Source: Arbacia lixula
Taxonomy: Eukaryota > Echinodermata > Echinoidea > Arbacioida > Arbaciidae
Direction of reading: 5' to 3'
Length of the DNA stretch: 64,000 bases
NCBI GenBank assembly: GCA_963669155.1
Contig: OZ022581.1
Span: 21,103,225-21,167,224, forward strand
Position numbers and translations under genes: made by a program. The notes under the pieces were generated by a model, which was not told where the DNA came from, did no database searches, and was given only the letters and a program-made list of their open reading frames with translations. Below are positions 45,951-48,900 of the stretch, in pieces. How positions within the stretch are numbered: position 1 is the stretch's first letter; each line of letters starts with the position of its first letter.

Positions 45951-48900
45951 GACGTGCTTTTGTGAAGTCGTGTCTCTGTAAAAAGCAAGCCTACACCTTC
46001 CTGCTTGAACATGCTGGATGTCGAGGTGGTCCCTGGCCGCTCCCTGGGCAGCGACCAATGGGAGTTTGTTCTCGGTAAGTCTGATGTATTGCATATGATA
46101 AGGTGGTCCCTGGGCAGTGACCAATGGGAGTTTGTTCTCGGTAAGTCTGATGTATTGCATATGATAAGGTGGTCCCTGGGCAGCGACCAATTGGGATTTG
46201 TTCTCGGTAAGTCTGATATATTGCATGTGTGGTAGCACTACAACTTTAATTCTTTCACTACTTGGTGCAGAAAAGCTAATTCACTTATTAAACATGTTGT
46301 GCATGTACTGTAACTGATAGAGCTAACTCAGTGTGTTCCTGACGAAAGGCAAATTTATGGGATGTTTGTGTGTGTACCTCTTGTTCCGTTATCAAAACCA
46401 AATGAGACAACTCAAGAGAGATAAGAAGATGACTGATAATACTTATAGAAAATCCACAGTGCAGAGCAGGTTTAACATCAGGAAGGGCTGAGGCCTGTCA
46501 TGTAGTCTCAAAATTCCACTTTTTTGTGCAACTTTTTACTCTATTGCTTCATGCACATATGGAAGAGAGGATCATAAAAGAAGTGTAGATGCATTTGAAA
46601 TGTGCGACAGAAAACAAAGTCGGCCTGGAGATAAACATGAAAAAAAAAAAAACAGAGAAATGTTCAATCTCCCTATAATATATATCTATCTAACGGCCGC
46701 AGCCGAGATGCTGTTCACCATGTAGCGCCAAGTGTCCCTGTTTGTCATTAAATTGGGGATGTCAGATGGATCCTGCTGGATGTCTCTAGCAATCACATCA
46801 ATGTAGTTAAAGGGACAACGACCCCTTTTTTGCCACGGTAACTTCCAACATGTGACATCTGAGACTACTTGATTGATCGCACGATGACAGTGCATGACCA
46901 GCAAATCGTGCACGGCGTTGGGCAACAGAAGATGAAATTGGGGGGGATAACTCCATATATCTGTGCTTTGGTCTTGTGCTCACGCCAGGATATGTTTTGA
47001 ACTCGCATGAGAAGTTTGGTGTAGGTGCCATCCAGTCTATCCTGTAGTTCTTTCTTCATGGTCCAGGTCTCAGATCCATATAATAGCACCTATAATATAG
47101 ACAGCTATCATTGTTATGGAGTAAATGTCACTCTCTGAGAAAATGTTTTTATTGGGTATGCTATTCAATTTCTATGCCGTTCAGCTCTTTAGAAATTGTT
47201 ACACATGCTCAGTCCAGGATATCACCACATGATCTCTCATTCCCGATTTCTACTAGAATAGAAATCAAATGTCAACTCGCAGGTAAGTTTTGTTTAAAGG
47301 GATAGTTCACCCAGAAATTATTTCAGTTTTAATAAAAGGAGACAAATGAAAGAAACAAGTAAGTTAAGGTTTGAAGAAAATCGGTCAAAGGAAAACGAAG
47401 TTATTTGACTTTAAAGTTTTGATTTTGTGACGTTACATGCAAGGTGCTCTCCCATATGTTGTGTACAATTTTTTTTGGAAAATTTCCATTTTCTCCAAAG
47501 GATATTTACCATTTCACCTGTGAGTTTAATATATCATTAGCCACATGTTTTTACACACATATCACTTTGAAAAGAATGTTTCCTTCACCAAAGAACATGA
47601 AAAAGGTAATTTATGGAAAAAGTAGTATGCAACGTACATGTATACAAGAGCACCTCGCTTGTGATGTCACAATATCAAAACTGTAAAATCAAATAACTTT
47701 GTCTTCCTATGACCGATTGTCATCAAACCTTCACTAATATGTTTCTTTCACGTGTCTCCTTTTATTGAAAACAAAGTAATTTCAGGGTGAACTATCTCTT
47801 TGATTTTCCTATTTACATTCATCTTTCAGGAATGACCTTCACCCAGGCAGTGAATATCTTACGCAGACAATATCGCTCCATCAAGGATGTGCAGGTCATC
47901 TACTGTGAATCGGTAATACCAACAATCTATCAAATCAAATCAAATCAAGAGGATCTGTATCGTTGTTGTAGCATTTTCTCCTTTCATACAGTTTCGCCCT
48001 GTCTAAAAGATGCTCAGATTTGAAGTAAATCTTAATCGACGTGTAGGTCATATCGTACTACATGTACTTAACTTTGATTTTATCCATGTGCTTTCCCATT
48101 TCAAGAAACCTCTTATTCAAGCTCACATATTATTTGCTCTATGTACTGTGAATTTAATAATAAGTGTTACAAATTATCATATTAAATAAAAATGATTCCA
48201 GAGGATAAAGGAGAGGGGACGAGGCAGATATAGGTCAGCTGTTGGTGGTGGTGGTGGAGGGGCTCATCACAAATAATACCAAATAAAGGCATGATTAATG
48301 AATATTCATGGGGTAGAATTATGCAAGGTGCGATAAAGGTCACATTCCTTGATGGAAACAACAATTTGTTAAACAATTATATGTGAAACAGCTTAATGGT
48401 AATACAGAGACGGTTGAGTTACTTTATTCTCTATGTAGCCAAAGATTTGTGCAGTATGCTCAAATTCATTGTTGACAACCTTATGGGGCATCATGCAAAC
48501 TGCACTAAATGTTATGTGATGCCTTTATATAACTTAAAGAAAGAGCTTTTTTTGATGAATATTGTGAATGCTTTCCTTTTCCCCTTTCTATTTTTGGTCA
48601 ATTTATAAGGAAGGGTGGGGGGGGGGGGGGATGACATGTTACGCTCTCATAAAATTCAGTTTACAAAATGTGAGAGAAAAAAAGAGCCTCAGAAAACGAA
48701 AGTGCCCCTGTGAACAAAAGAAATTAATGCCCCCCCCTGACAATTTAAGAAATAAAATCTGTGTTGTATGTATATGTATGATACCTGCAGCAGTCAATAT
48801 GGTTATATACACAGCAAGTGATTTCATGTCATAATAGTCTTCTCTTTTTGTGTGCACCGCAGGTGCCTCTTACCTTGGATCTGGTGCTCAACCTTACCCA

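Follow-up and report, generated by a model that had tools for sequence, protein, structure and literature searches.

Splice donors that lie within tandem repeats have been described before: the 31-bp repeat of the human CBS gene is of the same kind as the array described below. This VNTR, named c.1444_1467+7(16_21), is present in 16-21 copies (PMC2630376) and, in a second report, is located at the exon 13-intron 13 boundary and called non-coding, with more units corresponding to lower CBS activity (PMC5188458). Judging from its name, the unit comprises 24 exon and 7 intron bases, and each copy should carry a donor. Competition between equal donors is treated in a study with five minigenes, in each of which the CAG/GTAAGT donor is present in two identical copies between flanking introns of 365 bases, and the upstream donor was used exclusively (PMC9225289). 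According to the same study, human splicing events with near-equal donors favour the upstream donor when the flanking introns are long and the downstream donor when they are short. However, the upstream share after filtering for equal strength is 60% overall, far from exclusive, and before such filtering the downstream donor is favoured in all four intron classes, at about 60% overall (PMC9225289). Upstream-donor preference is, in genomes, a tendency. Duplication of proto-splice sites is also a known source of new introns, as summarized in PMC2891723, and the titles and opening abstract lines of the papers retrieved on duplicated donors describe no array like the present one.

In the 64,000-nucleotide window (the whole stretch of DNA that was analysed), such an array is found at the edge of the first coding exon of a predicted PHAF1 gene, an autophagy gene, on the + strand. 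It is a true, correctly phased triplication of the donor, which most likely arose by recent minisatellite-like duplication and left two donors redundant. TRF reported period 66, 2.8 copies and a score of 342 at 46041-46226, and a sequence scan located GTAAGT at 46075, 46141 and 46207; the exon end, the donor and the intron start all lie inside the repeated unit, the exon end at 46075 being a consequence of the predicted gene model. Unit 1 (46041-46106), delimited by TRF and by comparison of the units, consists of the exon end (46041-46074), the donor at 46075 and the start of the intron. Unit 2 (46107-46172, donor at 46141) is the same as unit 1 except for 1 of the 66 positions, a synonymous change in a Ser codon. 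Unit 3 (46173-46229, donor at 46207) is incomplete: its QWEF codons read QLGF, as had been pointed out before, and its end is intron sequence absent from units 1 and 2. Compared with unit 1, it differs at 13 of 66 positions when this non-matching end is included. Within the matching part, 3 of the 34 exon-like positions and 3 of the 24 intron-like ones differ, and the final intron-like difference sits at the edge of the homology, which ends near 46229.

The repeat extends further upstream than the reported unit. A 13-mer within the exon, AGGTGGTCCCTGG (46024-46036, + strand), marks where the repeat is rooted on its left; identical copies follow at 46101 and 46167, with spacings of 77 and then 66 bases, and the + strand of the window has no other exact occurrence. 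Thus, of the sequence-only reading, which had described a 66-bp unit present three times, the tandem array and the three GTAAGT donors stand, whereas the third copy is incomplete and the array starts at or before 46024. The TRF score of 342 and the threefold occurrence of the 13-mer rule out a chance repeat. None of the 88 self-matches of at least 150 bases in the window overlaps 45900-46300, a length threshold that a single 66-base copy would escape, and a search for relatives in viral contigs returned 6 pattern matches, none of which was confirmed.

The gene model is predicted and is backed by a Pfam match. It comprises 13 coding exons, from the ATG at 46011 to a stop codon ending at 62351, which when joined encode 420 residues with no internal stop. 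This product matches PF03676 (PHAF1) with 506.9 bits (cut-off 27) over profile positions 1-393 of 393, so that the name PHAF1, proposed from the sequence, holds at full profile length. Coding exon 2 (47830-47912, + strand) starts in phase 1 (GA-ATG) and is the common target of the three donors, and coding exons 3-13 with their introns (48863-62351, + strand) remain open to the stop codon. Donor 1 (46075-46080) is the inferred main donor, whereas use of donor 2 (46141-46146) or donor 3 (46207-46212), on the same strand, would add 22 or 44 residues, respectively. The phase of the array is established: as claimed earlier, all 3 donors join exon 2 in frame, giving 420, 442 or 464 residues with no stop, and the frame is open to 46235, where its stop codon ends.

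The three products differ in what they present at the start of the domain. In the 420-residue form, the Pfam match begins at residue 15, with SDQWEFVLG. Because unit 2 provides SDQWEFVLG again, the 442-residue form retains the full domain match (506.8 bits against PF03676, residues 37-431); donor 2 would therefore extend the N-terminus in front of a complete, unsplit domain, and the residues preceding the domain would change from VVPGR in the standard form to HMIRW. The 464-residue form loses W and E and scores 500.7 bits. The description of QWEF as conserved is based here on the 6.2 bits that QLGF loses against the Pfam profile and on the human protein, in which QWEF is presumably also present. 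A search of PDB for a solved structure of a relative gave 0 sequence matches up to E 10, and the titles and opening abstract lines of the PHAF1 papers retrieved name no such isoform.

The exon carrying the start codon (45951-46074, + strand) is probably internal. Based on an acceptor-like site, the ATG and the phase, it would begin with 60 untranslated (5' UTR) bases, continue with 64 coding bases, the first of the gene, and end at donor 1. When scored with a matrix trained on the other 12 acceptors in the gene, the AG before 45951 reaches 9.5 and ranks 37 of the 3547 AGs in the window, so that a 5' UTR exon is presumed to lie upstream. The 'exon 1' of the initial annotation is thus the first coding exon and, given the predicted acceptor, probably not the first exon. 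Depending on the donor, its length would be 124, 190 or 256 bases. In the range 40000-47829, the AGs 46989 and 45050, both in no known exon, outscore the acceptor at 45951, which counts against splicing mainly from donor 1. Inside the array, 8 AGs at 46080-46212 score between -3.9 and 1.0 and none is a plausible acceptor for a new intron, although the test is a weak one; the AG at 46052, in the exon part of unit 1 and upstream of donor 1, scores 6.0. When the accepted acceptors of the gene were scored leave-one-out, 11 of 12 ranged from 2.3 to 12.9 and that of coding exon 11 (60483-60582), the weakest of those scored, reached -4.5; hence, a low acceptor score does not in itself amount to proof.

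From -3 to +8, the three donors carry the same sequence, and each matches the U1 consensus at 8 of 11 positions, 7 of them contiguous. Donor 1 has a leave-one-out score of 8.9, the gene's 12 donors ranging from 3.3 to 11.1, and the three donors rank 9-11 among 3600 GTs under a matrix that includes donor 1 itself. Since the donors are locally identical, local strength cannot choose between them. The intron downstream of donor 1, however, is 1,755 bases long (46075-47829), which makes exon definition likely and, combined with the upstream preference in long introns, predicts the use of donor 1 and hence the standard protein. We therefore favour, as the probable explanation, a recent minisatellite-like duplication of the exon-intron boundary with donor 1 doing nearly all the splicing. 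Recognising the exon by its acceptor at 45951, the spliceosome would pick the nearest identical donor across the exon, namely donor 1; PHAF1 of the standard 420 residues would then be the product of most mRNA, with units 2 and 3 removed as part of the intron. Occasional use of donor 2 or 3 may be mild enough to tolerate, because the unit amounts to 22 codons and is open.

The main weakness of the donor 1 prediction is that the upstream rule was derived in human cells and may not hold in this organism. Two observations at the array also count against it: the accessibility of the donors in the predicted fold (over six bases) is 0.01, 0.04 and 0.03 for donors 1-3, low throughout and lowest at donor 1, and each of the three donors remains perfect even though unit 3 is altered elsewhere. 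Masking of some of the donors by RNA structure was considered and rejected, given this low accessibility at all three and the outcome of a test for a special RNA fold (z +1.15, with 87 of 100 shuffles folding at least as well). Recursive splicing was ruled out, the donors being preceded by CTCG and not by AG.

As to the origin of the array, which like the choice of donor is a matter that we infer, the exon contains the word TCCCTGG at 46030 and again at 46041, a spacing of 11 that equals the difference between 77 and 66. A tandem duplication may have copied the first coding exon/intron boundary and then grown, minisatellite-like, to three copies. Judging from the shared 13-mer, the first duplication would have been rooted no further downstream than 46024 and would have had a step of 77 bases. 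The 11 bases between the two TCCCTGG words would have been lost from the copy, immediately or shortly afterwards, and the resulting 66-base unit would have been duplicated once more, recently, yielding units 1 and 2 with their 1/66 differences; this order of events is a reconstruction.

Other repeats are present in the same gene. Minisatellites in a PHAF1 intron at 55588-55670 (33 bp units) and 56304-56360 (22 bp units) show that short tandem duplications are frequent in the gene. In support of the favoured explanation, TRF returned 27 rows for the window, and six arrays besides the donor array, each with a period of 16 or more, lie inside PHAF1 introns; those six account for 328 bases of a gene of 16,341, which would place about 0.24 of the 12 donors in an array, a rough expectation by position alone that ignores exon constraint. 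In addition, a diverged dispersed repeat of ~0.5 kb is found three times in PHAF1 introns (47291-47804, 51735-52192 and 58686-59188; one copy inverted), with 66-75% identity.

Redundant, tolerated donors fit the observations best. A weaker reading, which we regard as unlikely, is a working alternative-donor switch in which the three donors are all used and PHAF1 is produced with 0, 22 or 44 extra N-terminal residues. Such a switch would make sense of donors that are identical and in phase, of a 442-residue form that keeps its PF03676 match (506.8 vs 506.9 bits) with the domain start re-supplied by unit 2, and of a 66-base step and a unit 3 change that are both frame-keeping. However, minigenes with identical donors used the upstream donor exclusively (PMC9225289), the 464-residue form lacks W and E (500.7 bits), and the frame would be kept in about 16% of simulated duplications anyway.

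This last figure comes from simulations at the gene's 12 donors, in which the duplicated segment took in 15-60 exonic bases (fewer where one exon is short) and 10-60 intronic ones, and 4332 of 27285 duplications gave an open, in-frame second product; among lengths divisible by three, the proportion was 4332/9095 (48%). Thus, phase is weak evidence of selection, and one in-frame case is not surprising. A 77-base step would be out of frame at donor 2, whereas 66 bases are in frame. In unit 3, the change of CAATGGGAGTTT to CAATTGGGATTT is resolved as one inserted and one deleted base, a few bases from each other, by the pairwise aligner or as three substitutions by MAFFT, with the frame kept either way, and the divergence of this unit is about equal in its exon-like (3/34) and intron-like (3/24) parts, as expected without constraint. 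The suggestion of the sequence-only reading that selection may act on units 1 and 2 only goes beyond what can be inferred, their sole difference being synonymous (n = 1). Taken as a whole, the frame data are compatible with selection on the frame and do not require it. It is doubtful that the extra donors are live and that selection repaired the frame, first through the 11-base loss that turned 77 into 66 and again through the frame-keeping change in unit 3; if so, the array, with the domain start rebuilt in unit 2, would be a young protein-lengthening switch caught during its shaping.

We consider it very unlikely that the array is an assembly artefact, with a single real unit multiplied by misassembly or by the joining of alleles. 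The window does hold larger near-duplicates that could be unmerged alleles (17408-18998 and 21533-23125, 90.8% over 1,631 aligned bases), but the three units of the array differ from one another, unit 3 at several sites, and its internal junctions are without 11 bases that are present in the exon, which is not expected from joining errors. The larger segment, present twice ~4 kb apart, also includes 19140-19533 and 23123-23530 (93.4%); segmental duplication, a mobile element and unmerged alleles are all conceivable sources. Elsewhere in the window, a single open frame of 403 residues on the minus strand (7242-8450) matches NAD-dependent epimerase (PF01370, 128.4 bits), and its N-terminal end consists of 18-bp tandem repeats (8227-8409) encoding SNGQSE-like units. 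Two separate open frames on the minus strand (36922-38709 and 39357-39764) match reverse transcriptase (PF00078) and probably belong to a broken retroelement, and an open frame at 15583-16473 with a PHD finger (PF00628, 29.1 bits) is presumably a retroelement remnant, from the look of its C-terminal half.

Highly improbable, too, is the use of donor 3, nearest to exon 2, as the main donor, with mostly the 464-residue form being made. The intron-centred proximity rule (Reed and Maniatis, cited in PMC9225289), applicable under intron definition, would favour it, as do the unfiltered human events, in which the downstream donor prevails at about 60% (PMC9225289), but against it stand the length of the downstream intron (1,755 bases), the acceptor-like site in front of the exon and the loss of W and E from the product. 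Finally, ongoing intron gain, with the duplicated AG|GT serving as new acceptor and donor and the unit becoming an intron, is hardly credible: AAGGTGG does recur at a distance of 66 bases and such gain has been described for Drosophila (PMC2891723), but with a score of -1.1 the AGs of this word rank 1105 and 1104 of 3547, no pyrimidine tract precedes them, and introns running from donor 1 to an AG before 46103, 46118, 46169 or 46184 would have lengths of 28, 43, 94 and 109 bases, of which not one is a multiple of three. A new intron within the unit is thus thought unlikely on acceptor scores, lengths and the missing pyrimidine tract.

The PHAF1 array amounts to a natural splicing experiment, in which three locally identical donors sit on one exon and every product is readable. 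It also illustrates how cheaply an N-terminal extension can become available through a short duplication at the edge of an exon, because the start of the domain is copied too. The human CBS insertion 844ins68, which we take to duplicate the acceptor side and not the donor, is similar in size. By the title of its report (Sperandeo 1996), this 68-bp insertion is skipped by alternative splicing. The case in PMC4974935 resembles PHAF1 in that a short tandem duplication copies a splice motif; there, however, a new intron arises, whereas at PHAF1 the copies comprise the donor side only and include no convincing acceptor. The CBS VNTR is like the PHAF1 array in that the tandem unit spans exon end, donor and intron start, but, as described in the reports cited above, it is polymorphic, with 16-21 units whose length of 31 bases is not divisible by three, whereas the PHAF1 array has 2.8 copies of 66 bases, is in frame, lies at the start of the gene and is known from one assembly. 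The minigenes of PMC9225289 share with PHAF1 the identical strong GTAAGT donors on one exon and the long flanking introns; they were, however, designed, introduced into transfected cells and equipped with two donors, whereas PHAF1 has three. The array is a good natural test of donor competition, and counts of junction reads at PHAF1 would directly test whether the cross-exon proximity preference of the human minigenes holds in another eukaryote.
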